Assembly (NCBI GenBank): GCA_039801085.1 | Contig: JBDRTY010000005.1 | Span: forward strand, 1-64,000 | DNA from: a candidate division WOR-3 bacterium | GTDB lineage: Bacteria; Hydrothermota; Tepidihabitantia; Tepidihabitantales; Tepidihabitantaceae | Direction of reading: 5' to 3' | Length of the DNA stretch: 64,000 nucleotides | In this document: piece after piece, positions 6,486-22,123 of the stretch | Numbering within the stretch: position 1 is the first letter of the stretch | How the letters are laid out: every line of letters begins with the position of its first letter | Notes under the pieces: generated by a model | The model's input: the letters and a program-made list of their open reading frames with translations, nothing else | Databases searched by the model: none | What the model was told of the DNA's origin: nothing | Program-made: the position numbers and the translations under genes

Positions 6486-8570
6486 TTGGTTCTGCTTTTT
6501 CTCGCCCTGCTTTTGGCAGGTGGTAATGAGCCCGAATCGCTGCCGGAGATCCGGGTGCACCGCACTACCACACCGCCGGTGATTGACGGTGTGCTGGAGG
6601 AGGTCTGGTCCGGGGCGGACTCGGCAACCGGCTTTATTCAGCAGATTCCGGAGAATGGCAGACCGGCGTCAGACCCGACGACGGTATATCTCCTCCAGGA
6701 TGAGAAAAACCTCTACATTGCCTTCCGCTGCCCTGTCAGTGACTTCACCCGGGTGAACGACCGGCTGAGTGAGGAGCCGGACGGGGTCCGGGTGCTGATT
6801 GATCCCTTTGACGACAATGTCAGCGCCTACTGCTTCATTGTGGGATTTAACGGGGTGGAGACTGATTACCGGATCACCGGTGATGGCGCCAGTTATGAGA
6901 ACTGGGACGGGGTCTGGCGCTCGGCGGTGAAACGGCATGACTGGGGTTATGCAATTGAGCTGGCAATTCCCTTCAAGACCCTGCGTTATCCGCCGGCGCG
7001 GACCGAATGGGGGATTGACTTTGCCCGCTACTTTGTCCGGCGGGGTGAGCGGTCCTTCTGGTCCCGGCATGAGATTACCGGATTCCGGGTCTCGCGCATG
7101 GGCCGGCTTACCGGAATTCAGCCCGCATCCCGGCGCCTGGGGCTGGAGCTTTATCCGGTCGGACTGCTCCGGCAGGAGAAGTCGGGGAGTGATGCTGCCG
7201 GCTGGCGCGATCTGCTCCGGGCTGAAGCCGGACTGGATTTAGCCTATGCGCCCACACCGAGTGGCAATCTGCAGGTTACTCTCCTGCCCGATTTTGCCCA
7301 GATTGAGGCTGATCCCTATCAGGTGAATCTGTCCCGTTATGAACTCTGGCTTGCCGAGCGCCGGCCATTTTTCATAGAGGCGGTTGAGACATTTGGCGGT
7401 TCCTCCCAGCCGGTTAAAATCTTCTATTCCCGGCGGATCGGCCGACCCCTGCCCGATGGCCGGGTGGTGCCGATTTTAGCCGGAATGAAGTGGACCGACC
7501 GGCTCGGCCGGAGCCAGCTTGGGGTTCTCGGAGCGCTCACCGGTGAACTGGGCAGCGAACCGCAGAGCTTCTATTCGGTGCTGGCAGCCCGGCATCAAAT
7601 CCTTGCCAACTCCGAGCTCGGTCTGCTTTATGCAGGCAAGGACAACCGCCAGCTGTCCAATCACGGCCTGGCGCTGGACGGCATCTGGCGCCACCGCACG
7701 CTCACGAGCCGGCTGTTTGTCTGCGGTGCCCAGTATGGTGACAGCCTGGACTATGCCTTCAGTCTGGACGGCAGTTATCAGTCCGACCGTTTGAGCGGTG
7801 AGCTGATTCTCCGTCAGATTCAGCCCGAGTTCAACTTGAACGGTCCGGGCTATACCACCTGGCGCGGACAGTACGGCACATTTTACTTCGGTCCTACCGT
7901 TTACAACCGCGGCGGATTGCGCTACGGTGCGCTCCTGCCCGGAATCGAAATCAGCCGGGAGTGGGACTATCCGGCCGGGATTTTTGACCGGCGGGTCTTT
8001 GTCAATCTTACCGGAATGACCCGTTCCCAGCAGCATATAACCGCCTGGACCGGCTGGGGCGAGCAGTGGGCGCTTGAGCGCCGGTTTCCCGCAGTTTATG
8101 CGGGCATCTACTATGCCACCGACGCCACCCGTCCCTTTTCCGCCAGCCTTTACTGCAATTACGAAACCAGGTCTGCCAACTACCGCCGGCTGATGATCGC
8201 ACCGGTGGCACAGCTGGAGCTGACACTCCAGGGCAGGCTCGGCGACCGGCTCTCGGTCTGGTATACCCACAGCACGACGATTGAAGCCGATTCACTCGGA
8301 CAGGTGCGCCGGCAGGACCTGACAAGTGTGCTCCGGCCCGGGCTGGAATACAGCTTCTCGCCCAAGGCATCGGCACGGCTGTCCTGGGAGGCGGTAACAG
8401 GCTACGCCCCGGAAGCGGAGCGTCAGTATCTCCGGCACGGGCTGTTCGGACTTTACTCCTGGACCTTTGCCCCGCGCAGCACCTTCTACTTTGCCACCAA
8501 CTGGGTTCTTGACAAGGGCAATACCAGCGCCATCTTCGTTGCCAAGGTAAGGTATCTGTTCAATATTTAG
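6486..8570 (+). CDS. DUF5916-type outer-membrane protein with CBM9-like domain
   Basis: 694 aa. The TTG start lies one base after the pyrC stop and is followed by a short hydrophobic signal (VLLFLALLLAGG). Residues about 25-200 form a CBM9-like module (TPPVIDGVLEEVWSGA, ENWDGVWRSAV). The rest has alternating aromatic beta strands consistent with a barrel, ending in an aromatic-rich strand (YLFNI). Members of this family are predicted outer-membrane proteins of unknown function. Its place behind pyrC is probably incidental read-through. It converges on the PIF1 gene with an 11-bp overlap. Confidence 0.75.
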   Translation: MVLLFLALLLAGGNEPESLPEIRVHRTTTPPVIDGVLEEVWSGADSATGFIQQIPENGRPASDPTTVYLLQDEKNLYIAFRCPVSDFTRVNDRLSEEPDGVRVLIDPFDDNVSAYCFIVGFNGVETDYRITGDGASYENWDGVWRSAVKRHDWGYAIELAIPFKTLRYPPARTEWGIDFARYFVRRGERSFWSRHEITGFRVSRMGRLTGIQPASRRLGLELYPVGLLRQEKSGSDAAGWRDLLRAEAGLDLAYAPTPSGNLQVTLLPDFAQIEADPYQVNLSRYELWLAERRPFFIEAVETFGGSSQPVKIFYSRRIGRPLPDGRVVPILAGMKWTDRLGRSQLGVLGALTGELGSEPQSFYSVLAARHQILANSELGLLYAGKDNRQLSNHGLALDGIWRHRTLTSRLFVCGAQYGDSLDYAFSLDGSYQSDRLSGELILRQIQPEFNLNGPGYTTWRGQYGTFYFGPTVYNRGGLRYGALLPGIEISREWDYPAGIFDRRVFVNLTGMTRSQQHITAWTGWGEQWALERRFPAVYAGIYYATDATRPFSASLYCNYETRSANYRRLMIAPVAQLELTLQGRLGDRLSVWYTHSTTIEADSLGQVRRQDLTSVLRPGLEYSFSPKASARLSWEAVTGYAPEAERQYLRHGLFGLYSWTFAPRSTFYFATNWVLDKGNTSAIFVAKVRYLFNI

Positions 8571-10717: not shown

Positions 10718-10731
10718 AAACAGCGGCGGAC

Positions 10732-11109
10732 TTATCCGGTCTGGCAGCCATGCCGGTGGGAATGGTGGTTGCCGCATCCTTCGTGCCCGCAGCCGGGGGC
10801 ACCCGGCACCAGTGTGCCGGCAGCAAACCGCCTTATCATCTCCTCCACAGTTCCGGAAACCCCGGGATAAACGGCGATGCCGGCAGCGGTCAGCTGGTCA
10901 AGTGCGCCCGGTCCAATCCCGCCGCAGATCACTGCCTCAACCCGGTTCTCGGTGAGTATCCGGGCGAGCGCTCCGTGGCAGTGGCCCGGGTGAGGGATGA
11001 CCGATTTCGGACCGGTTCTGCCGTTTTCAATTTCCACCAGCGTCAGTTTTTCACACCGGCCGAAATGAGGGGCAACGGTATCGCCATCAGTGGCAACTGC
11101 TACCTTCAT
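10732..11109 (-). CDS. NifX/NifB-associated dinitrogenase cofactor-type protein with His-rich tail
   Basis: 125 aa. The body matches the small dinitrogenase iron-molybdenum cofactor family (MKVAVATDGDTVAPHFGRCEKL, and VEAVICGGIGPGAL). The C-terminal about 20 residues are Cys/His-rich (GCGHEGCGNHHSHRHGC), suggesting metal binding. No nitrogenase gene is nearby. Members of this family are often found with Mrp-type Fe-S carriers, as here: it overlaps mrp by 4 bp. Role inferred as Fe-S or other metal cluster handling. Confidence 0.8.
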   Translation of the reverse strand: MKVAVATDGDTVAPHFGRCEKLTLVEIENGRTGPKSVIPHPGHCHGALARILTENRVEAVICGGIGPGALDQLTAAGIAVYPGVSGTVEEMIRRFAAGTLVPGAPGCGHEGCGNHHSHRHGCQTG

Positions 11110-11924
11110 TTTACCTCCTGTTCAATCATCCGGTCAATGACTTTCATCAGGGCAGCGGCAGCTTTTGATTCCGGATGGGCAAGGACCAGGGGCATGCCGG
11201 CATCACTGCCCCGGACGATTGCCGGGTCAAGCGGCACCTGCCCCAGCAGCGGCACGCCCAGCTCCTGTGCCATCCTTGCCCCGCCGCCGGTGCCGAAGAG
11301 TGCAATCTCCTGACCGCAGTGGGGGCAGGTCATTCCGGACATGTTCTCAACCACCCCGAGCAGCTTCAGATTCAGCAGTCGGGCAAAGCTGACCGCCTTG
11401 CGCGAGTCGAGCAGTGCCACATCCTGCGGGGTGGTAACGACGAGTGCGCCGGTCGCGGGAATCAGCTGGGCAACAGAAAGCGGTTCATCACCGGTTCCGG
11501 GCGGAGAATCAATGATGAGCCAGTCCAGTTCGCCCCAGCTGACATCACCGAGAAACTGCATGATCGCCCGCAGCTTCAGCGGTCCGCGCCAGACCACCGG
11601 TGTATCCGGATTGTCCAGGAGCATCGCCATTGACACCACCAGCACCCCGGCGGGGGTGGGCACCGGTGCGATTCTGCCCCCGGACCCGAGCTCGAAACGG
11701 GCATTTTCCACCCCGAGCATCTTGGGCACATTCGGACCGTGAATATCGATATCCAGCAGGCCGACCTTCCGGCCGCGCCTTGCCAGTCCGGCGGCGAGAT
11801 TGACCGCAATTGTGGTCTTGCCTACACCTCCCTTGCCGCTGAATACCAGAAGCCGGTTTTTTACTCCCTGGAGATTGTCACTTATCTTGCGCAACTCCTC
11901 CGGGTCCATCCCTTTAACGCTCAC
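11106..11924 (-). CDS. Mrp/NBP35-family Fe-S cluster carrier ATPase
   Basis: 272 aa from GTG at 11924, chosen because AAAGGAG sits 5 nt upstream; a longer GTG at 11945 is possible. The deviant Walker A loop SGKGGVGKTT, the LDIDIHGPN motif, DWLIIDSPPGTGDE and the C-terminal CPHCG pair (in MSGMTCPHCG) identify the ApbC/Mrp family, which holds and transfers Fe-S clusters. It overlaps the DUF134 gene (11 bp) and the NifX-like gene (4 bp), forming a tight three-gene operon. Confidence 0.9.
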   Translation of the reverse strand: MSVKGMDPEELRKISDNLQGVKNRLLVFSGKGGVGKTTIAVNLAAGLARRGRKVGLLDIDIHGPNVPKMLGVENARFELGSGGRIAPVPTPAGVLVVSMAMLLDNPDTPVVWRGPLKLRAIMQFLGDVSWGELDWLIIDSPPGTGDEPLSVAQLIPATGALVVTTPQDVALLDSRKAVSFARLLNLKLLGVVENMSGMTCPHCGQEIALFGTGGGARMAQELGVPLLGQVPLDPAIVRGSDAGMPLVLAHPESKAAAALMKVIDRMIEQEVK

Positions 11925-12222
11925 CGTCACTCCTTTCTTTTGCACCGGGACATTTGATCACCAGCGCCTTACCGCCAACCAGCGCCGCCGCGACCTTCCG
12001 GCGGGCAGACTCAACGATCCGGCCAAAGGTGGGGCGCGACACCCCCATCATTGCCGCCGCCTGCTCTTGATAATGACCTTCGAGATCAGCCAGCCGCAGC
12101 GCCTCCAGTTCATCGAGCTCCAGCACCACCTGCTCGAGCTGGCAGAGCGGTACGCCCCGGGGTTTGAAAAAGGTGACCTCCGGACTGAACTCAATCCGGC
12201 GACAGCATTTACGCCGTGGCAT
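11914..12222 (-). CDS. DUF134 family DNA-binding-like protein
   Basis: 102 aa. MPRRKCCRRI is the family-typical start, so the ATG at 12222 is chosen over upstream in-frame starts. LDELEALRLADLEGHYQEQAA and MMGVSRPTFGRIVESARRKVA look like a sigma-region-4-like helix-turn-helix. GGAG lies 8 nt upstream. It heads the Mrp operon under a consensus promoter, which makes an autoregulator of Fe-S or metal genes plausible but unproven. Confidence 0.85.
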   Translation of the reverse strand: MPRRKCCRRIEFSPEVTFFKPRGVPLCQLEQVVLELDELEALRLADLEGHYQEQAAAMMGVSRPTFGRIVESARRKVAAALVGGKALVIKCPGAKERSDGER

Positions 12223-12265
12223 CAGACCGCTCCGGGTAGCGCAGGCTGTTTTTGAACATATGCTC

Positions 12266-12293
12266 ATTATAGCCGGTTTTGGGCAGATGTCAA
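12266..12293 (-). promoter_or_regulatory. Consensus promoter of DUF134-mrp operon
   Basis: Minus strand: perfect TTGACA (12293-12288) and perfect TATAAT (12271-12266) with a 16-bp spacer. The leader is about 37 nt and carries a Shine-Dalgarno site. It is back to back with the promoter at 12308. Confidence 0.8.
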
Positions 12294-12307
12294 ATACACA
12301 GTCAGGT

Positions 12308-12336
12308 TTGACCGCAACTGAATCTGCCGGCATAAT
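12308..12336 (+). promoter_or_regulatory. Promoter of beta-helix lipoprotein gene
   Basis: TTGACC (12308-12313), 17-bp spacer, CATAAT (12331-12336). The leader is about 45 nt and ends in AAAGGAGG before the ATG at 12388. Confidence 0.6.
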
Positions 12337-12387
12337 TTTGGCGGTCGGTACCGCCTGCGGAAATGACGGCAGCAAAGGAGGTGCAGA

Positions 12388-13809
12388 ATGAAAAGACGGG
12401 TACTGACGATGCTCATTGCCGGACTGCTCGCCGGCACAGGCTGCAGGAAAGCTGTTTCCGACCTGAGCGGTTATGACTATGTCCTCCGGCAGGAGGCGGA
12501 TGTGATCCATCCACCTTCAGGCACTCCGGATGCCTGGATTACCATCATCGGCGGTGATTATTCCGGAGATTACTATGTGGCGCCTGATGGTGACGACGGC
12601 AATCCGGGCACCGCGGAGCGCCCCTTCCGGACGATTGCCCTTGCGGTCAGCCGGCTCCAGCCCGGTGATACGCTGGTGGTCCGGGCGGGTGCCGGACGCC
12701 TGCGCCCGGTGATTGCCGGTGAAAACAATTTATACTGTGCCTTTGACCTCTCCGGCTGCCAGTATCTCCGGATTGAAAACCTCGAGATCACCAGCACGGG
12801 CGAGCACCGGTTCCGGGAGGGGTTCAGCGGTACTGCCGCACCGGTGGCACACATCCTGCTCCGTAATCTGAAAATTCACCATCTCGATGAGTTCGGCATT
12901 GACATCGGCGATGCGCTTGACCTCCGGATTGTCAACTGCTCAATCACCTACTGCGGTTTCGGCAGTATCGGCGGACCGGCAGGTCAGGCGGGCGGCTGGC
13001 GCGAGATACTGATTGATGGCTGTGACCTGTCCTACAGCGGCCATTACTATCAGGGCGGTGACGGCTCCCGGCGCCCCTATGACCGGCCGGACGGTTTCGG
13101 GATTGAGGCATCGGCCGGACCGATTGAAATCTGCCGCACCACCGCTACTCACAACTGCGGTGACGGGCTGGACTCCAAGGCAGAGCGAACCTGTATCCAC
13201 GAATGCCTGGTGGCAAACAACGCCTGCGACGGCATCAAGCTCTGGGGCGACTCCTCCCGGATTGAAAACTGCCTGATCTACGGCCGGGGAGATGGCAACA
13301 CCACCATTACCCCCTGGTCACCGCTGGTGATCAGCACTGAAAGGCGGGATGCCAGCTTTGAGATCATCAACTGCACAGTTGACGACAGCCTCGGTGGCAA
13401 CTACCTCCTCCATGTCCAGTATGACCAGCCCGATCTCCCTGTCCGTCTGAAAATTGTCAATACTATCTTTTCCAGCCGGGGCACAAATGCGCCCGCGGTG
13501 TGGCTGGCGCCCGCGGTCAGCCCGGACCTGCACCACAATTTGTTTTTCTCGCCGCAGGAGGAGCGGATTCTGATTCAGGGGGAACGGACTTTTACCCGGA
13601 ATGAGGTCAGCCAGCTCGGCACGGGCAACCTTTACGCCGATCCTCAATTTGTGCGGCCGGCCTGGGGCACGGAGGGGAATTACCATCTCTCTGCCGGCAG
13701 TCCGGCGCTTGATGCCGGTGATTCCGCCTCGGCACCGGCGGTTGACCTTGACGGCAGGTCCCGGCCGCAGGGCGCCGGAGTGGATATCGGATGCTATGAG
13801 GGGGAATAG
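12388..13809 (+). CDS. Secreted right-handed beta-helix protein, probable lipoprotein
   Basis: 473 aa. A signal peptide ends near a cysteine (LLAGTGCRKAV); the residues before it are not the classical lipobox, so lipidation is only likely. Repeating short strands with Asn/Gly turns (IENLEIT, LRIVNCSITYCG, IEICRTTATHNCGDG, IENCLIYG) indicate a parallel beta-helix as in polysaccharide lyases. The C-terminus LSAGSPALDAGD...VDLDGR...VDIGCYE is the choice-of-anchor Q signature. Function is probably binding or cleaving a polymer outside the cell; no catalytic residues are identified. Confidence 0.8.
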   Translation: MKRRVLTMLIAGLLAGTGCRKAVSDLSGYDYVLRQEADVIHPPSGTPDAWITIIGGDYSGDYYVAPDGDDGNPGTAERPFRTIALAVSRLQPGDTLVVRAGAGRLRPVIAGENNLYCAFDLSGCQYLRIENLEITSTGEHRFREGFSGTAAPVAHILLRNLKIHHLDEFGIDIGDALDLRIVNCSITYCGFGSIGGPAGQAGGWREILIDGCDLSYSGHYYQGGDGSRRPYDRPDGFGIEASAGPIEICRTTATHNCGDGLDSKAERTCIHECLVANNACDGIKLWGDSSRIENCLIYGRGDGNTTITPWSPLVISTERRDASFEIINCTVDDSLGGNYLLHVQYDQPDLPVRLKIVNTIFSSRGTNAPAVWLAPAVSPDLHHNLFFSPQEERILIQGERTFTRNEVSQLGTGNLYADPQFVRPAWGTEGNYHLSAGSPALDAGDSASAPAVDLDGRSRPQGAGVDIGCYEGE

Positions 13810-13874
13810 CAATTCAAGACACGCTTGCCAGCGGTTCAGTATCTCGGAGTGGGTATGGTGAGTGAGCCTGAACT

Positions 13875-16800
13875 TTAACTGGCGCTTTTTTCTTTTATTC
13901 CAAATAGTCTTTTAACCAGTCTGTCGTTTTCTTTTTCTAACTTTTCAATTTCTTTTTCTTTGCCTTCTAATTTTAACTGATGGCATTTTTTGGAGATTTC
14001 GGAAAGTTTTTGATGAAGCGGGTTTTTTGGATCGAATTTTGGAATACCAACGTGTTCCATTACAGAAGGTGTACCAAAACCCCGACCAGCAGACGAAAAG
14101 GATTTAATAAAATCACGAACCGGATTTGAATTGATAATAGCGCAAAGATAATGGGCTTCGGGTTCGGAGTCGGTGGCAAAAAAACATGTGGTGTACAAAG
14201 GAATTAAATTTTTATAGCCAAAATGAGTCTTAATACTGGAAACCACTGAAGCGATAATATCATTGCCCATATAACCCCAAACTACTTTGTAATTTGAAAT
14301 AGTTTTTTCATCGACACCAAACATCGCATAAAATGCTTTTTGCTGACGCACTCTTTTTGTAGACTTTGCATTGATGTTTAATAGATCGCTTTTAAATTTT
14401 GTAAGATATCCATATGTCCTTGGAAAATTAGTCTTCAAGACTTTTTCTTTTATCGGTTCTCCATTTTTATCATGAGTTAAGAGTATAAAAATTTCATTTT
14501 TTATTCCCCAACGTTTAATATCTGCCCCTCTTAGAGCAGGATAAATTAAATTTTTTTCAATTCTTTCTTCTATCTTGGCTATTTTTAATTTCCCTTTTTC
14601 GGGAATATTAGAAATAACAATATTACCATCTGAAAGCACCTGATTAACATTGACCCAAAATACTCCATAAGGTTTTGTCTCCACACCATATTGGGCTTTA
14701 TAATTATTTTTACCTTGTAGCTTTTCAAAATCTTCTCCTTCGGCAAGATAATGTTGCCAAGCACCAACGCTTGAGCCAATTGGCTTAGCGCTATATTTTT
14801 TCTTTTGCAAAAGCGGCAAAACTTCGTCTAATAATTTATCAGTAGCAATTTTGCCCACGCCTTTTTTCTTTGTCCAAACAATGTAGGATACCGGATATTC
14901 TGTTTTTTCTCCCTTTTTAAGGATTATTGCCGCAGTTTTATTTGCTGCTCCTTCAAATGGTTGAACAGAAACTAAGTCGTGGGCTTTTAATACTTTAAGA
15001 TATTTACCTTCTCCTAATTGAAATTTCCTGAATCCTTCACCAGCTCCCTTTGATTTAAAAACTTCTTGCGTTATTAAAAATCCTAATTTTGCACCATCTT
15101 TTAAGTAATAATCGGACGAGGCATAAACAAAGAGCATGGAAAAATCAGGACGACTAAATCCGTAAGTTTTTTTAAGTGGGAATAATCTATAATCTTGCCA
15201 AAGTTTTAAAGTTGCTTCCCTATACTCTTTAGAGAGAATTTCCCACAATATCCACGGCGGATTGCCGACGACAAAATCAAATTTACCGGCGACCATTGGA
15301 GCAAAAGCGTTTTTCAGAAATCTTGCCCAGATGCCATTTTTGTTTTGTTTTTCCAGTTCTAAAATTTGATTGTAAAAATTTTTAACTACTTGCTGATTGG
15401 TTGGAAATACTAATCCTTCTTTTTCAAATCTTGCCATCGCTTCATCAACCGAGTATTGATTTTTTGCCATTTCTTCAACAAGTGGCGCAGCAGTTGCCAA
15501 TAAAAATCCACTGTCTCGTACCCATTCAGCAGGAATTTGAAATTTACCAACAGAAGTTGAAACTTCTAAAAATTCGCCAAAAAGATTTCCTGTAGTTCGT
15601 GTCGGCGTTAAGACTGAATCACATAAATAAACGGGAATTTCAATATGCCCACCTTTTTCCAATATCTCATTAACCAAATCTCCCATTGCAAAAAGATAAT
15701 TTACTCTTGAGGCAATAACTGCTAAAGGATTTAAATCAAATCCCCAAATGTTCGCAACAATTCTTTTTGCAATTTCTAAATCCGGCATTTTTTCTTTTTC
15801 TCTTCCGTGTTTTATTGCTCGCTGAATAGCCAAAACAAGAAAAGTGCCTGAACCACAAGCCGGGTCCAAAAATCTTTTAAGCGTGTTGCCGTCGTAGCCG
15901 ACTTCATTGAGTAATAATTCCGCCAGCCAATCAGGCGTGTAATACTCGCCTAAACGATGTCGAACTTCTTTCGGAACTAAATATTGATAAAGTTTTTTAA
16001 GAAGGTCGCGGGTTGAAACCGGGTCTAATGTGCTGGTTGCCGGTTCAAATTCAGAAAGAGCGCGGGCAATTTCTCGGATGGCTTCCTTTAATTCCGGCGA
16101 ATCAAAAGCGGAAAGATACCAGCGGAAGAAGTCACCTTCCAAAAAATTGGTGATTCCCTTTCGGGCGTAAATTCCGCCGTTTTCTATGTCTTCAAGTTGC
16201 TGTTCAAGTTCGTCGTCGGATATATGGGCAAGTTGGGAAGCAAGAGACGAGCCAAAAGATGTTTCTCTTAAAGTCAGAAGTTCGGCGGCGATAAGTTTCA
16301 TTAAAAAAGCAAAATAGGTATGGACGGAAAACAAAAGTTCCTGAAAATCAGTTTCTTTGCCTACTTTGTAAAGTTTTGAAAGCGTTTCCGCTTCTTTTTT
16401 CTGATGGCCGCCGGTAAATTGTTCGCCATAAACAATGCCAAACAACCTTTTCCACTCGTTGAAAAATGTGCGGATGTGCGTTTGGTCGCCCCAATATTTA
16501 AGAGCATTGGCAAGGGCGGAAACCATTTTTGGGGCAAGCTCGCTTTGAGGACCAAACTTTTGAGCTAAATTTTCGGCGGTAAGAGGAAACCGGGACAAAG
16601 CCCGCAGGTGGATTAAAAAAGTTCGGGCGCTTTCCGGATTGAAATCATAAGGACCGCGAATAAGGAATTTGGTTTTGTCGAGCTGTTTGCCGTTTTTATC
16701 TTGGTATTGAACAAAGAAAATCTGCTCGCCATCAAAGCCTACCCCAACTAATTGCGTGAGTTTTGTTTCTTTTGCTTCATCGGATAAGTAATTTATCAAC

Positions 16801-17105
16801 TGCTCGTAGGCGTGGTTTATATTTTTTCTTGAAGTAAATGACCTTGGCGGCTCGTATTCAATAATAACTTGTCCATGGACTGCGTCTGATCGACCGCTAT
16901 AAACTGATTTCTCGTATTTAGGAGTTGATTTAATGTTTAATTCGGTTCTTATCGGCTCTAAAAGTTTTTCAAAACCGATTCTTAAATCTTCCTCGGTTCT
17001 GGCTTCATGAAGCAGTTTTTTTGTTCCTAAAACAAGGCTGTCAGCCAACCTGAGAAGCGAATCGTGGTGAAACTCGGTGGCTTGGTTTATCTTACCCTTT
17101 TTCAT
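13875..17105 (-). CDS. Type IIG-like restriction-modification enzyme, Eco57I-type N6-adenine methylase
   Basis: 1076 aa. Methylase motif I is FLDPACGSGTF (about residue 413) and motif IV is VVGNPPWILWE. The last about 350 residues look like a target-recognition region with a terminal coiled coil. Near residues 70-85 the segment SDAVHGQVIIEYEPP has the spacing of a PD-(D/E)XK nuclease site, with E-Y-E in place of E-x-K, so restriction activity is uncertain. The gene is visibly AT-rich and lysine-rich compared with its GC-rich neighbours, a sign of transfer. No separate specificity or nuclease gene is adjacent. Its promoter lies in a duplicated segment. Confidence 0.85.
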   Translation of the reverse strand: MKKGKINQATEFHHDSLLRLADSLVLGTKKLLHEARTEEDLRIGFEKLLEPIRTELNIKSTPKYEKSVYSGRSDAVHGQVIIEYEPPRSFTSRKNINHAYEQLINYLSDEAKETKLTQLVGVGFDGEQIFFVQYQDKNGKQLDKTKFLIRGPYDFNPESARTFLIHLRALSRFPLTAENLAQKFGPQSELAPKMVSALANALKYWGDQTHIRTFFNEWKRLFGIVYGEQFTGGHQKKEAETLSKLYKVGKETDFQELLFSVHTYFAFLMKLIAAELLTLRETSFGSSLASQLAHISDDELEQQLEDIENGGIYARKGITNFLEGDFFRWYLSAFDSPELKEAIREIARALSEFEPATSTLDPVSTRDLLKKLYQYLVPKEVRHRLGEYYTPDWLAELLLNEVGYDGNTLKRFLDPACGSGTFLVLAIQRAIKHGREKEKMPDLEIAKRIVANIWGFDLNPLAVIASRVNYLFAMGDLVNEILEKGGHIEIPVYLCDSVLTPTRTTGNLFGEFLEVSTSVGKFQIPAEWVRDSGFLLATAAPLVEEMAKNQYSVDEAMARFEKEGLVFPTNQQVVKNFYNQILELEKQNKNGIWARFLKNAFAPMVAGKFDFVVGNPPWILWEILSKEYREATLKLWQDYRLFPLKKTYGFSRPDFSMLFVYASSDYYLKDGAKLGFLITQEVFKSKGAGEGFRKFQLGEGKYLKVLKAHDLVSVQPFEGAANKTAAIILKKGEKTEYPVSYIVWTKKKGVGKIATDKLLDEVLPLLQKKKYSAKPIGSSVGAWQHYLAEGEDFEKLQGKNNYKAQYGVETKPYGVFWVNVNQVLSDGNIVISNIPEKGKLKIAKIEERIEKNLIYPALRGADIKRWGIKNEIFILLTHDKNGEPIKEKVLKTNFPRTYGYLTKFKSDLLNINAKSTKRVRQQKAFYAMFGVDEKTISNYKVVWGYMGNDIIASVVSSIKTHFGYKNLIPLYTTCFFATDSEPEAHYLCAIINSNPVRDFIKSFSSAGRGFGTPSVMEHVGIPKFDPKNPLHQKLSEISKKCHQLKLEGKEKEIEKLEKENDRLVKRLFGIKEKSAS

Positions 17106-17174
17106 ATTTACCCCAATTTAAGCATTAGTGATGGTAACACAATTAAGCATCCGCACTCACGGTTTTTAATTATG

Positions 17175-17202
17175 AATTTAATCATCAATGAAATAATGTC
17201 AA
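17175..17202 (-). promoter_or_regulatory. Promoter of R-M gene, inside duplicated segment
   Basis: Minus strand: TTGACA (17202-17197), 16-bp spacer, TAAATT (17180-17175). Its -10 region (13 identical bases) and -35 match those at 19820-19848, showing that the promoter was duplicated together with the 84-bp gene fragment beside it. Confidence 0.6.
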
Positions 17203-17232
17203 ACTCTGTGCCACTTGCCGGGGACTTTTGAG

Positions 17233-17316
17233 ACTATCTCCGATCTCGTGGTGTATTCCGGGTAGCGGGTGTAGACATAGCGGAGGAGGGCGGCAAGGGG
17301 GAGGGCGCCGAAGCGG
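17233..17316 (-). pseudogene. Truncated copy of the 3' end of the gene at 19854-20609; left direct repeat
   Basis: 84 bp identical, apart from one base (C at 17291 versus T at 19940), to 19882-19965, in the same orientation. It encodes only the near-C-terminal part of the downstream protein (RYVYTRYPEYTT). There is no start, and similarity stops abruptly at 17316. The rest of 17106-17351 holds the R-M promoter and nothing else that I recognise. Confidence 0.9.
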
Positions 17317-17351
17317 AGAATATCCCGGTCTCATAAGAGCGAGAGCTTCTT

Positions 17352-19766
17352 TTAGCGAAGACCAAGCACCCAGACACTGTTTGCCCAAGACAGGGTAAAA
17401 TAGACATATCTACCATCAGGGTGGACCGCAATACCTCGGGGATAGTGGTCTACCACGATCCTTTTGACAACCGTATTGTCAAATGTCCTAATCACCGAAA
17501 CAATGCCTGAGTACCACCTGTGAGTAACATAGACATAGTTACCAGTGGGTAGTGCCGCAATAGACCAAGGGTAACCTGCGACCGGGATTGTTGCCACTAC
17601 CGTGTTGTCCGAAGTCCGAATCACCGAGACGGTACTGTCGGTCCAATAGTTGGCAACATAGACATACCTGCCATTGGGCAGTGCGGCAATGCCCGCAGGT
17701 TCGTTTCCGACCGGGATGGTTGCCACTACCGTGTTGTCCGTAGTTCGAATTACCGAGACATTGTCTGAGCCCTGGTTAGTAACATACACATACTCACCAT
17801 TGGGCAGTGCGGCAATGCCCGCAGGTTCGTTTCCGACCGGGATGGTTGCCACTACCGTGTTGTCCGAGGTCCGAATCACCAGGACTTGACTTGGTTCACA
17901 GGTAACATAGACATACTCGCCATTGGGCAACGGTGCAATACTATGGGGAACAACTGTGAGCGGGACTGTTGCCGCTACTGTGTTATCCGAGGTTCGGATC
18001 ACGAGGACATCGCAATCAAGACCTCTGCAGGCGACATACACATACTCGCCATTGGGCAGCGCTGCGATGCCCGCGGGTTCGTCTCCGAGCGGGATGGTTG
18101 CCACAACCGTGTTGTCCGAAGTCTGAATCACTGAGACATTGTCTGACCCACGGTTGGCGACATACACATACTCACCATTGGGCAGCGCTGCGATGCCCGC
18201 AGGTTCGTCTCCGACCGGGATGGTTGCCACAACCGTGTCCGGATACTTCTCAGTAATTACAATTTCATGCCTGGCAGACCAGCCCGATATAGTACCGTTT
18301 ATATCTTTTGCCTGTGCCTTGACATAGTAGGTGTTTAGTGCTGCCCACCGGTGGCTCATGCTGACCGTTTCACCTGATGGGACATAAGAACTCCAATTAG
18401 ATATATTCCCGTCGCCCCAGTCAAATCGGATCGCAATGTTTTCGCCTTCAAGGTCCACGGTTGAAGAGGAGAATTCATAAGAGTTACAGGTATCACCACA
18501 CATAGCACCTGACGGTGTCGCCGGAGTATTCGGCGGTGCGTTTGTCGAGTGAAAGAAGGACCTTGAGTAATCGGCAAAGGTATAATCAAAGTCTGCCAAT
18601 TCCCAGGAGAGGATTTTAACCTTGAATTCCAGACCTGCTGCTATACCTCCACCAACATCAAAATCAAATGGTGGATAACTGATTTCATCGTAGAGGTAGG
18701 GCTTGAGATATAAACCGGGACCAATAACACCATAGATTTTGCATGCAACACAGCCTTTAAGAAACTTTTTCAGTGTTGCTGACAGGGGTCCCGAAGGACC
18801 GGCACTAAAACTCCAGTTAACATCGCAAGTCAGAGTGTTGTCGCAGATAGGGTGCCAGGAACCGTTTGAAAACTCTGTCCCAATTGTATTGGTAGATGTT
18901 AAATTTAACTCACTGGTAATATCCTGCCGCATGGTTAAGGCCAGGTCGGCATCAAGACCACCATAAACTAAAAGCTGGAAGTCAAAAACAATGGGCACAA
19001 AGCCAATAAAGATGATAACCTCGCCTAAAGATATCGGGGGCAGTAACGGGATTTCTACTCCGTCAGACACGGATTTGATAAGGTTGGTGTTGACACCATT
19101 GAAATGTATGCCATCAGATGAGATGCCGACGAGCTTGAAGTACTTTATCCCCCCGTCAATTTGCAACTCCAGGTCAACATCAAAACCCTTGGTAAGTATA
19201 ATTGTGTCAATGGACATGGAAACTGCGGGGTTGTTCTGAGGGTCCCTGATTTCAATCGAGATATCGGGTATTTTTATATTGAACAGCTCACCTTGCGGTG
19301 AAAGCTGGGGTTGTGCGGAGCGGATATGGTAGCGATATTTTTTACCATCTTTGATAAAAAAACTGTCTATTCTAACCGGAGCAAATTGCTGACCATGGGG
19401 GGAAAGCGAGAAAGTTGTGTCTATTTTGCCCCGTTCAATTGCATCTGTTAAACAGGCCTGTTCTGTGAGGACGACAAGAGTATCACCCCTTGCCGTCGTG
19501 GAGAGAACCCTCTTTAAATATCCATAACCGATTTCGCCAACAAGAATATCGCCCTTCCGGAATTCAGGTTTTGAGGCGCCGGATTGGTAGATTAAGTTCA
19601 GTGTATCACCCTTGATAATAACACCCAGGAAGTTTTGGTTTTTTTCTGGCAGTTTTACTTTATCACTTATTATTACCTCGCCCACCTTTTTCTTATGGTC
19701 GCAGTGGATTGTCAATATTGTGGTTACTGCCAGCATGACACCTATCGGGGTTAATATTTTTTTCAT
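17352..19766 (-). CDS. Secreted YVTN seven-bladed beta-propeller protein with PKD-like domain
   Basis: 804 aa from ATG at 19766, which has AAAAGGGGAG upstream (an in-frame start 45 nt earlier lacks this). The N-terminal hydrophobic signal ends near a Cys (TIHC), not a clean lipobox. Residues about 20-400 are unrecognised. About 400-500 is PKD/Ig-like (FDWGDGNISNW). About 508-804 carries seven repeats of about 42 residues (TVVATIPVG.EPAGIAALPNGEYVYV), enough for one propeller. Base composition is lower in GC than its neighbours. The gene is bracketed by 84-bp direct repeats. Family propellers bind ligands or surfaces; no enzyme site is seen. Confidence 0.8.
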   Translation of the reverse strand: MKKILTPIGVMLAVTTILTIHCDHKKKVGEVIISDKVKLPEKNQNFLGVIIKGDTLNLIYQSGASKPEFRKGDILVGEIGYGYLKRVLSTTARGDTLVVLTEQACLTDAIERGKIDTTFSLSPHGQQFAPVRIDSFFIKDGKKYRYHIRSAQPQLSPQGELFNIKIPDISIEIRDPQNNPAVSMSIDTIILTKGFDVDLELQIDGGIKYFKLVGISSDGIHFNGVNTNLIKSVSDGVEIPLLPPISLGEVIIFIGFVPIVFDFQLLVYGGLDADLALTMRQDITSELNLTSTNTIGTEFSNGSWHPICDNTLTCDVNWSFSAGPSGPLSATLKKFLKGCVACKIYGVIGPGLYLKPYLYDEISYPPFDFDVGGGIAAGLEFKVKILSWELADFDYTFADYSRSFFHSTNAPPNTPATPSGAMCGDTCNSYEFSSSTVDLEGENIAIRFDWGDGNISNWSSYVPSGETVSMSHRWAALNTYYVKAQAKDINGTISGWSARHEIVITEKYPDTVVATIPVGDEPAGIAALPNGEYVYVANRGSDNVSVIQTSDNTVVATIPLGDEPAGIAALPNGEYVYVACRGLDCDVLVIRTSDNTVAATVPLTVVPHSIAPLPNGEYVYVTCEPSQVLVIRTSDNTVVATIPVGNEPAGIAALPNGEYVYVTNQGSDNVSVIRTTDNTVVATIPVGNEPAGIAALPNGRYVYVANYWTDSTVSVIRTSDNTVVATIPVAGYPWSIAALPTGNYVYVTHRWYSGIVSVIRTFDNTVVKRIVVDHYPRGIAVHPDGRYVYFTLSWANSVWVLGLR
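17560..18245 (-). repeat. Tandem YVTN-coding repeats
   Basis: Within the propeller gene, units of roughly 126-129 bp repeat in tandem, several nearly identical at DNA level (for example the segments around 17670, 17800, 18050 and 18170 sharing the coding sequence for PNGEYVYV). Such similarity allows slippage or gene conversion between blades. Confidence 0.8.
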
Positions 19767-19819
19767 TTTGACTCCCCTTTTATCTGGTTGATAATCTTTT
19801 CCGGCTCTCAACCATTTGT

Positions 19820-19848
19820 AATTTAATCATCAGCCGATGCGATGTCAA
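19820..19848 (-). promoter_or_regulatory. Promoter of YVTN propeller gene
   Basis: Minus strand: TTGACA (19848-19843), 17-bp spacer, TAAATT (19825-19820). Leader of about 47 nt. It shares its -10 region and -35 with the R-M promoter at 17175-17202. Confidence 0.6.
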
Positions 19849-19853
19849 GATTG

Positions 19854-20609
19854 CTACGGTTTTTTACCCGATACCCTTACCACTATCTCCGATCTCGTGG
19901 TGTATTCCGGGTAGCGGGTGTAGACATAGCGGAGGAGGGTGGCAAGGGGGAGGGCGCCGAAGCGGGCTTTGATTAGTTTGATGCCGGGTTCGAGCTGGCG
20001 GAGGCGGCGAACCGCAAGCTGGTAGAGGTGGCGGGCAAATGCCCTGCCCTGAGGGGTGAGTTCAAGCATCAGGCTGGCAGCGTCGAGCCGTTCCGCGGTG
20101 GCGATGCCGGAGTTGAGCTGAAGGAGCTGGCGGATGGTTCTGGCATCGGTTGCCAGGACCGGGGTGCCGTCCGGCTCAAGCCGGATCGCCCGCACCAGTC
20201 CGGCAGAAATCAGGAGTTCGAGGTCGGAGTAGATCTCCGGGGAGAAGGGCCCGAGTTTGTAGGGGACAAATTGATAATGCCGGGGAACAAGCCGGTCGAG
20301 TTCGAGTTCCTTTAAGGCGATGAAGAGCAGTTTGGTGATTCTGGTCATGCCGAGGAGCGGTTCGGCAAATCTGCCGGTTCTGCCCGGTGCATAGAGGAGG
20401 AGCAGGAGCAGGTCCAGTCTTGAGCCGAGCCGGACCCGTGCCGGGTTTTCCCGGAAGCGGCGGAGCCGGATAAGCAGGCGTCTTAGCGCCGGGGTCTGGA
20501 GGTGCTGGCGGGTCCGGTCAAGCAGGGTTTTTTCGTCCCAGCGGTCGAGCCGGTTTTCCAGCTGTTGCCGCCAGTGGTGGAAAAGGGAGCGGATTTCCGT
20601 CTTTTTCAT
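19854..20609 (-). CDS. Winged-helix-like protein of unknown function, coupled to sigma factor
   Basis: 251 aa, not confidently assigned. Residues about 60-140 (FVPYKLGPFSPEIYSDLELLISAGLV) resemble the winged-helix, YGPFS-type pattern seen in Panacea/DUF4065-like proteins. LELTPQGRAFA later suggests a second DNA-binding-like segment. It overlaps the sigma factor gene by ATGA and has its own AAAGGAG site, so the two are made together; a regulator or antagonist of that sigma factor is one possibility. Its 3' end (19882-19965) is duplicated at 17233-17316. Confidence 0.55.
   Translation of the reverse strand: MKKTEIRSLFHHWRQQLENRLDRWDEKTLLDRTRQHLQTPALRRLLIRLRRFRENPARVRLGSRLDLLLLLLYAPGRTGRFAEPLLGMTRITKLLFIALKELELDRLVPRHYQFVPYKLGPFSPEIYSDLELLISAGLVRAIRLEPDGTPVLATDARTIRQLLQLNSGIATAERLDAASLMLELTPQGRAFARHLYQLAVRRLRQLEPGIKLIKARFGALPLATLLRYVYTRYPEYTTRSEIVVRVSGKKP
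19882..19965. repeat. Right copy of 84-bp direct repeat
   Basis: Lies inside the 3' end of the winged-helix-like gene and matches 17233-17316 at 83 of 84 positions. The two copies bracket the YVTN propeller gene. Confidence 0.92.
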
Positions 20610-21181
20610 CTCTGTCTCCTTTCGTACGCCTGGCGGAGCCGTGCCTCTGCCCGGCGCAGCCGCATGGTCACCGCTGACGGTTTGAGTCCGAGGATGGCGG
20701 CGATTTCACCGGGGCGCAGTTCCTCGAGGTAGTGGAGGATTAAGACGGTGCGGTCCTTTTCCGGGAGGTCGGCAAGCGCCTGACGGAGCCGGGCGATTGC
20801 CGGCGGGGTCTGGTCCGGTTCGCTGGTGGCAGCATCCTCAGGGCAGTTCTCAATCGGCACGGCTGGCGGGGTGCGGGCGATTTTCTGCTTCTGCCGGGCG
20901 ATGCGGTTGAGGCAGATGCGGTAGAGCCAGGTGGAGAGGCGGGAGTCGCCGCGGAATTTTTTTATCCCCTGTGCCGCAGCGGTAAAGGTCTCAATCGCCA
21001 CATCCTCGGCATCAGCGGTGTTTTCCAGCCGGGCAAGGCAGAGTCGCATGATCATCCGCCAGTAGCGGTGAAACAGTTTTTCAAATGCGCCCGGAGCGCC
21101 GTTTTGGAGCTCAATGAGCAGCTGGCGTTCCTCAGCGGGCAGTTTCTGCCCCACCGGTAAATGGTAGTGTTCACTGTTCAC
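20606..21181 (-). CDS. RNA polymerase ECF-type sigma-70 factor
   Basis: 191 aa from GTG. Region 2 is seen in FEKLFHRYWRMIMRLCLARL and DAEDVAIETFTAAAQGI, followed by STWLYRICLNRIARQK. Region 4 is LPEKDRTVLILHYLEELRPGEIAAILGLKPSAVTMRLRRAEARLR. Typical ECF length and layout. It directs RNA polymerase to a stress or envelope regulon, not identifiable here. No classical zinc-finger anti-sigma gene follows; the overlapping winged-helix-like gene takes that position. Confidence 0.9.
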   Translation of the reverse strand: MNSEHYHLPVGQKLPAEERQLLIELQNGAPGAFEKLFHRYWRMIMRLCLARLENTADAEDVAIETFTAAAQGIKKFRGDSRLSTWLYRICLNRIARQKQKIARTPPAVPIENCPEDAATSEPDQTPPAIARLRQALADLPEKDRTVLILHYLEELRPGEIAAILGLKPSAVTMRLRRAEARLRQAYERRQR

Positions 21182-21366
21182 CGGTCAATCCCTTTCGCTC
21201 TATACAGTTAGAGTCAGATTTTCTCTTCAATTTCACCGGCAGTTTCCGGTGCCGGGTTAATGTTATTTTTTTCAATGGCTTGCGGATTTGCACCCCATGA
21301 TACCCTATACCCCCGGCAGTTCCCCCGAGGGTGGGGTCGTTGCTGCGGGCAGGGTTGTGGCAAAAC

Positions 21367-21394
21367 TTGCCAGAATTTACGGCGTAATTAAAAT
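21367..21394 (+). promoter_or_regulatory. Promoter of lipoprotein operon
   Basis: TTGCCA (21367-21372), 16-bp spacer, TAAAAT (21389-21394). The leader has CCGGAGG before the ATG at 21446. The rest of the 264-bp gap from 21182 has no gene I can support. Confidence 0.5.
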
Positions 21395-21445
21395 TTTGCC
21401 GTGTATCAGCGGTGAGCATATGAGGTGTAAGAACCGGAGGTGTGA

Positions 21446-22123
21446 ATGAGAATTAATGTGCTCAGGGTGATACTGCTTTTTGCCCTGCTTGCCGGCTGCG
21501 ACCGCTGGCAGCCGTTTGAGAAGCTCAAGGGTCCGGAGTATTTCCCGCCGCTCGGGCAGTGGATTTATCAGGTGTATGAGACGCGGGACCCGAATTTCCG
21601 CTGGTCCTACAGCCGGGTGCAGGAGCACTGGGAGCGGATGAGATATGAGAACAATTCCGGCAAGGAGGTTGAGATTGATGTGATCCAGACGCTTAACTTC
21701 TATCCGGGCTCTTCGGGCTCGTGGTATACCTATTTTTATGTTGATGCGAGCGGGGTGTATGAGTATAACGGTTTTGAGTTCTATCCGACCCTGCTTTTTC
21801 CGGTTGAGCCGGGCAAAGGCTGGGTGGTGGAGCAGGTGACATTCATAGATGCCAACGGAGTTACGACTGACACCCGGCTTGAGGCGCAGACTTCACTGGA
21901 TACGGTGCGGGTTCCGGCGGGCGAGTTTGAGGCGGTGAAGGTGGAGCTGAACTTTTACGATTATACCTACTGGCTGGTTTACAAGCAGAAACAGCTCTAC
22001 TGGAAGCTGGTGCGCTGGTTTGCCGAGGGTTACGGGATTGTCCGGGAGTATGATTCCTATATCCCGAAGTATAAGGATCTGGAGTCGGTGAATTTGTTTG
22101 AGGAGACCGGAGGCGGGAAATGA
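21446..22123 (+). CDS. Lipoprotein of unknown function
   Basis: 225 aa with a clean signal and lipobox (LLFALLAGCDRW), so probably membrane-anchored at Cys17. The body is rich in Tyr/Trp and beta strands, with no motif I recognise. CCGGAGG precedes the start. It overlaps the next gene by 4 bp, and both encode exported proteins, suggesting a small envelope operon. Confidence 0.7.
   Translation: MRINVLRVILLFALLAGCDRWQPFEKLKGPEYFPPLGQWIYQVYETRDPNFRWSYSRVQEHWERMRYENNSGKEVEIDVIQTLNFYPGSSGSWYTYFYVDASGVYEYNGFEFYPTLLFPVEPGKGWVVEQVTFIDANGVTTDTRLEAQTSLDTVRVPAGEFEAVKVELNFYDYTYWLVYKQKQLYWKLVRWFAEGYGIVREYDSYIPKYKDLESVNLFEETGGGK

Follow-up and report, generated by a model that had tools for sequence, protein, structure and literature searches.

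Defense-type and secreted-protein genes repeatedly inserted behind one regulator gene in candidate division WOR-3 bacteria

The propeller gene and the duplicated gene end

The DNA analyzed here, called the window throughout, is a stretch of 64,000 nucleotides (contig JBDRTY010000005.1, assembly GCA_039801085.1) from a candidate division WOR-3 bacterium whose genome, G000, is assembled in 7 contigs. It contains a gene for a secreted YVTN beta-propeller protein that is bracketed by two direct copies of an 84-bp block, and this propeller insertion is one layer of a recurrent hotspot that lies behind the same gene in two families. An earlier note, made from the sequence by itself, had described the two copies as equal except for one base. 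Pairwise comparison indeed revealed 83 of 84 identical bases, and a search of the whole 1.91-Mb genome recovered these two places and no third. The right copy is the 3' end of a gene for a winged-helix-like (wHTH) protein, referred to here as the anchor gene, and the left copy is an orphan fragment, both as the note had it. Beyond the 84 bp the orphan stays in frame for another 34 bp up to a stop of its own (TTRSEIVSKVPGKWHRV). Judging from the shared SEIVxKxxGK motif, these 34 bp probably represent the tail that the wHTH gene possessed before the propeller cassette arrived.

The repeat does not extend into the promoters. The approximately 30 bp that adjoin the block are dissimilar between the two sides, and beyond them both sides carry TTGACA and the 13-bp sequence TGATGATTAAATT, with a spacer of 10 bp on the propeller side and 9 bp on the orphan side. 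This 13-mer occurs three times in the G000 genome, and when 276 other TTGACA-type promoters of G000 are compared, 12 reach the alignment score of the two promoter regions. The likeness therefore lies within the range of other promoters of this genome, and the promoter was rejected as a duplicated part of the block. Because of this score and the dissimilar 30 bp, we do not accept the single duplicated block of 142-146 bp, promoter included, that had been proposed.

A relative with one block copy and no propeller gene was sought and found in the sister genome G001 (assembly SKW181), whose anchor gene is 85% identical to that of G000. Collinearity between G001 and the window, at about 84-91%, reaches as far as the right edge of the 84-bp block, where synteny stops exactly. 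A 1.0-kb stretch with a WG-repeat gene (Pfam) follows in G001, and collinearity returns just before a flavin-reductase gene. Between the same synteny edges the window holds 9.2 kb. The long direct repeat that flanks the insert is thus single-copy in a relative that lacks the insert, although the site in G001 is not empty and holds a different cargo. The earlier note had read the locus as a cargo gene inserted together with a very long duplication of the target, or as recombination-driven capture, with no transposase present. The general idea fits well with the single copy in G001, and among the inserts scanned against Pfam there was no transposase or recombinase domain. What has to be changed is that the event is not a one-off, that some orphans are chimeric and that the block comes without the promoter. 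A propeller gene that was ancestrally in place and a misassembly, the two alternatives raised at the time, are disfavored by the G001 locus and by independent arrays in three further genomes (G009, G020, and G027).

The features of the locus are collected in Table 1. The propeller open reading frame (ORF; 17352-19811, reverse strand) is of the YVTN/lactonase type (Pfam Lactonase, E 1.4e-18; TIGR02276, E 5.9e-55). Its guanine-plus-cytosine (GC) content of 47.8%, against 53.7% for the genome, had been noted as lower, but 13% of the 2.4-kb windows of G000 fall below 48%, and the outlier is instead the neighboring restriction-modification (R-M) gene at 37.7%. Between 17391 and 18263 the propeller blades form a near-tandem series, in which a unit of about 126 bp occurs 7 times at an identity of up to 87%; this blade array has the average GC of the genome (53%) and the remainder of the gene 44.6%. 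Function and expression of the cargo, activity of the promoters and any mobility are putative, being read from the DNA. The anchor protein is a distant relative, at 27-31% identity, of SocA/DUF4065-domain proteins. It had no match in Pfam or NCBIfam, and a fold search returned weak MarR-type winged-helix matches, none at E <= 0.001. A viral or plasmid origin of the wHTH fragment was rejected, since there was no viral-contig or phage match and plasmid relatives were distant only. An RNA element was likewise rejected, as the region 13000-22000 is without an Rfam match.

Table 1. Features of the propeller locus (positions in the window).
Feature	Position	Strand	Remarks
Type IIG R-M enzyme, older neighbor behind the orphan	13875..17105	-	PADLOC REase_MTase_IIG, E 4e-278; Pfam Eco57I
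Promoter-like TTGACA-N9-TGATGATTAAATT	17175..17202	-	behind the orphan, ahead of the R-M gene; likeness not beyond the promoter control
Reading-frame tail of the orphan (34 bp)	17199..17232	-	SKVPGKWHRV, up to a TGA stop
Orphan copy of the wHTH gene 3' end (84 bp)	17233..17316	-	1 mismatch
Secreted YVTN beta-propeller protein, bracketed cargo	17352..19766	-	ATG at 19766; ORF also open from TTG at 19811
Promoter-like TTGACA-N10-TGATGATTAAATT	19820..19848	-	ahead of the propeller gene
Anchor gene, winged-helix-like (wHTH) protein	19854..20609	-	251 amino acids
In-place copy of the 84-bp block	19882..19965	-	3' end of the wHTH gene
Sigma-70-family factor (like those of extracytoplasmic function, ECF)	20606..21181	-	upstream partner of the anchor gene; conserved in relatives whether or not these bear arrays
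Whole variable segment relative to G001	10719..19881		synteny is lost at the block edge and regained ahead of the flavin-reductase gene

The same gene end in other genomes

We searched for homologues with the wHTH protein and its profile, and found the gene at good score in 12 genomes of the order, with the sigma factor upstream where the loci were read. The assemblies are uneven in quality, and in G027, which consists of about 160 contigs, the order of the array can be read in part. Eleven orphan wHTH 3' ends were recovered from 4 of the 12 genomes (one in G000, two in G009, one in G020, and seven in G027), which span several genera and two families. Leaving aside four G027 copies on other contigs, the orphans lie on the strand of the wHTH gene. 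The genes found between orphans encode AIPR/AbiU, nucleotidyltransferase, AbiE, DUF3800, serpin and lipoprotein products. In G009, which belongs to another genus, the host gene end is followed by orphan copies at 6775-6908 and 8053-8117 of the oriented locus L041. In G020, from the other family, an orphan of 76 bp that is 100% identical lies 1,034 bp downstream, with a DUF3800 gene in between. The G027 orphans a, b, and c are located on the contig of the host gene and the fragments C111, C103, and C11 d and e on others; near them we found a nucleotidyltransferase gene, lipoprotein genes, serpins, an AbiEii gene and a weakly HicB-like gene (PHROG E 0.004). Fragments b and C111 have identical downstream sequence and may not be independent. 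Behind the wHTH gene of G003 and G002 there are defense genes (AbiJ_NTD4, GmrSD_N, AbiE, methyltransferase) and no wHTH fragment. G025 and G026 seem insert-free, with a similar 260-amino-acid gene next in both. G003 and G009 share 90% identity across the 3.6 kb that lead up to the wHTH gene end and are divergent past that end. We conclude that one regulator gene has time and again received defense-type and secreted-protein genes directly behind it, each insertion leaving a stray copy of the regulator gene's tail.

The orphans have a common anatomy. All eleven keep the ESE/SE codons and the tail after them, and in nearly all of them a stop stands directly behind the tail (C103 reads somewhat further). 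Measured from the YPEY codon, their left ends fall between about -63 and +20 bp, a spread of more than 80 bp, and the repeats measure 31-275 bp. The tails themselves differ (IKDILK, LEKILK, IKEVLK, IEMILK; in the window SKVPGK versus VRVSGK) and all look coding-competent, as though each had formerly ended a working gene. In G000, G009, G020, and G027 the host wHTH gene is open to its stop, its 3' end having been restored by the direct repeat. Compared with their own target genes, the window copy is the near-identical one described above and fragment a of G027 is chimeric. To the left of the ESE codons, fragment a has 7 mismatches to the host gene in 36 positions and to the right none in 36 (Fisher p = 0.011); fragment C111 has 2 in 36 to the left and 8 in 33 to the right. 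Relative to the host gene, both fragments are chimeras of two alleles. They consequently point to recombination between alleles within the conserved end, and not to one target that was copied once and then drifted.

The wHTH gene end is a special target. When all 1,911,782 bases of G000 were scanned for direct repeats within 25 kb (minimum length 40 bp, minimum identity 88%), the wHTH pair was the only gene end with an orphan copy. The other pairs were dispersed repeats, repeats inside paralogous genes and shared 5' or 3' ends of paralogues, and a general, genome-wide duplication process was rejected on this ground. A scan of 400 kb of G009 contig 1 yielded no repeat of the gene-end-plus-orphan kind. 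Taken together, the two scans mark out the wHTH gene end, though other anchors are possible inside an island. In G009 a 275-bp repeat of 97% identity, made up of the 3' end of an AIPR gene and a wHTH fragment, surrounds a gene for a protein of 282 amino acids, and a 57-bp leader is also duplicated within the island. In G003 the 5' end of a DNA-alkylation-repair gene is repeated, one copy being fused to a secreted GH114-type protein.

Some further observations concern the contents of these islands and the other repeats. The 282-amino-acid protein of G009 (L041, oriented 6914-7762) has a C-terminal stretch that looks GIY-YIG nuclease-like by eye; its Pfam and NCBIfam matches were sub-threshold and to other families, and PHROGs gave none. 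In G003 (L042, oriented 14294-14884) a cysteine-rich ORF of 62 amino acids is doubled in a 402-bp tandem unit that includes the end of the preceding endonuclease-like gene. On contig C2 of G000 (121472-125031), short repeats VMTPLPAKQGLK occur in several ORFs and resemble an array of clustered regularly interspaced short palindromic repeats (CRISPR); beside them, an AbiE-like pair (123525-124777) lies between 193-bp, 95% direct repeats of a dispersed family. On contig C1, a 154-bp, 99% repeat (412267-412420 and 414381-414534) covers the leader and signal peptide in two proteins that differ elsewhere, which suggests that 5' ends of secreted-protein genes were swapped. On contig C3, two different secreted-type proteins have a common 3' end of 254 bp and 96% identity (143227-143480 and 145792-146045), like a shared C-terminal module.

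How the cassettes may have been joined

With moderate confidence we propose that the insertion of cassettes is polar and additive, takes place behind a gene end that is conserved, and relies on homology-anchored recombination resembling that by RecA or homology-facilitated illegitimate recombination (HFIR). It would be a recurrent version of insertion with long target duplication. The 3' end of the wHTH gene would be the entry point of a chromosomal cassette array. Incoming DNA from another wHTH locus, consisting of a tail, a promoter and a cargo gene and usually closing with a partial wHTH tail of its own, would pair with the conserved 3' end, and the cargo would be added directly behind the wHTH gene. 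The host gene would thereby acquire the last codons and the promoter of the donor, and its old tail would be shifted downstream as an orphan. In the window, the propeller cassette would have been added in front of the older Type IIG R-M gene, giving the 84-bp repeat. Joining was most likely achieved by general recombination anchored in a short conserved stretch, for which no dedicated recombinase would be needed. New cassettes might arise by HFIR during DNA uptake, with one illegitimate join per first origin. In HFIR, one end is joined by homology and the other by a non-homologous or microhomologous join. The identity of the donors, the uptake of DNA and the involvement of RecA or HFIR are all conjectural here; DprA and ComEC are present in 6 of 6 genomes tested and make uptake by these hosts plausible. 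General recombination with DNA from other wHTH loci would account for the locus specificity, the variable limits, the chimeras and the missing enzyme.

Several points weigh against this proposal. At wHTH ends the join has little homology to rely on (31-135 bp), and all eleven fragments start within about the last 115 bp of the gene, which is tighter than random illegitimate joins might give. Since no other gene end behaves alike in G000 or in the 400 kb of G009, a purely general mechanism must have help from the locus. Neither a donor nor a circle nor an intermediate turned up, an intact donor locus was not found, and competence of the hosts is deduced from two genes alone.

The specificity of the target could also reflect a site-specific cassette system, with the wHTH 3' end as attB, the cassettes as small non-autonomous elements with an attP, and a recombinase, Xer-type or unrecognized, acting in trans. 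We regard this as possible, if tentative. It agrees with the use of the same gene end in two families, the polar position, the constant restoration of the target gene, and the sole gene-end-plus-orphan repeat of G000. It agrees, too, with the ESE core common to all eleven repeats, and an enzyme acting in trans would explain their tight clustering and this conserved core. The core is also the stretch with the highest synonymous conservation between the genera (YPEYTT stretch, 86% identity against a mean of 55%), but the peak amounts to about 2.3 standard deviations and is nearly matched by another stretch at 82%. The left ends of the repeats vary, however, and duplications occur at other anchors within the same islands; with such variable anchors, general recombination fits better than a fixed attachment site. 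The enzymes do not discriminate either: two Xer-type tyrosine recombinase genes are present alike in array-bearing genomes (G000, G009, G020, G027) and array-free ones (G001, G013), and in G000 they are on contigs other than that of the array. G025 has a third, weak and partial Xer-type match, and in G026 one gene was found. Six of seven genomes (G000, G001, G002, G003, G009, G020) lack serine recombinases of the resolvase type, and the one in G027 is on another contig. Neither kind of enzyme is nearby or array-specific, and no array contains a Phage_integrase domain.

A broader version of this idea is an integron-like system without an integrase of its own, in which the 3' end of a regulator gene would serve as a recurrent attachment site, and non-autonomous defense and secretion cassettes would be added and exchanged across WOR-3 families by a trans-acting recombinase invisible to current profiles; we consider it unlikely. 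Three conventional elements were rejected outright, namely an integrase-bearing island (no integrase domain in any array), an integron (no integrase beyond the Xer pair) and a transposon with target-site duplication (no transposase, and repeats that are much too long and too variable).

Strict insertion with long target duplication, as for R-M genes of Helicobacter pylori, would copy the recipient's own target once and be driven by the R-M neighbor or other selfish cargo. The near-perfect repeats of 84 and 76 bp, the adjacent Type IIG enzyme and repeat lengths of tens to hundreds of bp speak for it, and a long, variable pattern is described in PMC3031569 and, for R-M genes, in PMC1643837. The G027 chimeras and the differing, coding-competent tails on the two sides nevertheless point to two alleles, and the bracketed gene encodes a propeller and not an R-M enzyme, which makes this explanation improbable. 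Chance similarity, misassembly or a local duplication that decayed with no insertion is hardly credible: the G000 assembly is in 7 contigs, but the same arrangement occurs with different cargo in independent assemblies, G001 is without the propeller, and reads of ordinary length can cross an 84-bp repeat.

Relation to known systems

The locus, with its successive additions behind one gene end, bears on the question how defense genes pile up in islands without a transposon or integrase. Each addition leaves a footprint, and does so in several genera, so that the order of arrival can be read directly. The WOR-3 arrays allow general recombination to be tested against a hidden site-specific enzyme, and they offer a simple search rule: a defense gene with, behind it, an orphan copy of the 3' end of the gene that precedes it.

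Integron cassette arrays are similar in that single genes or small operons are added in a polar manner at one fixed location, and in that a site recurs between the cassettes. In the WOR-3 arrays, by contrast, there is no integron integrase beyond the two Xer-type genes, and the site that recurs is formed by the coding 3' end of the gene upstream. Integrative elements with attachment sites in the 3' ends of tRNA or protein genes likewise restore the target with the incoming end and leave the old end as a direct repeat on the far side; the WOR-3 inserts differ in being about 1-4 kb long, without a recognized integrase, and in the varying limits of their repeats.

Long, variable target duplication upon insertion is known from H. 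pylori, where R-M genes are often involved (Nobusato et al. 2000, Gene 259:99, by way of PMC1643837 and PMC3031569). There too a gene enters without a transposase and is flanked by a long, variable direct repeat of its target, and an R-M gene is adjacent in our case. The WOR-3 locus, however, reuses the same gene end in two families and builds arrays of several layers; its cargo is mostly not R-M, its tail alleles are swapped and some of its fragments are chimeric. In the type VI secretion system (T6SS) arrays of Vibrio cholerae, 3' ends are shifted or displaced without an integrase, and HFIR has been proposed (PMC5361080). As in these effector-immunity and Rhs arrays, new modules come in behind a conserved anchor gene whose displaced 3' end persists as an orphan, and layers succeed each other. 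In WOR-3, in contrast, a small regulator forms the anchor and remains intact, and the cargo consists of defense-type and secreted-protein genes and not of immunity genes of the anchor. The WOR-3 locus thus unites features of long target duplication and of the T6SS/HFIR arrays, and adds to them the recurrence on one regulator gene across families.

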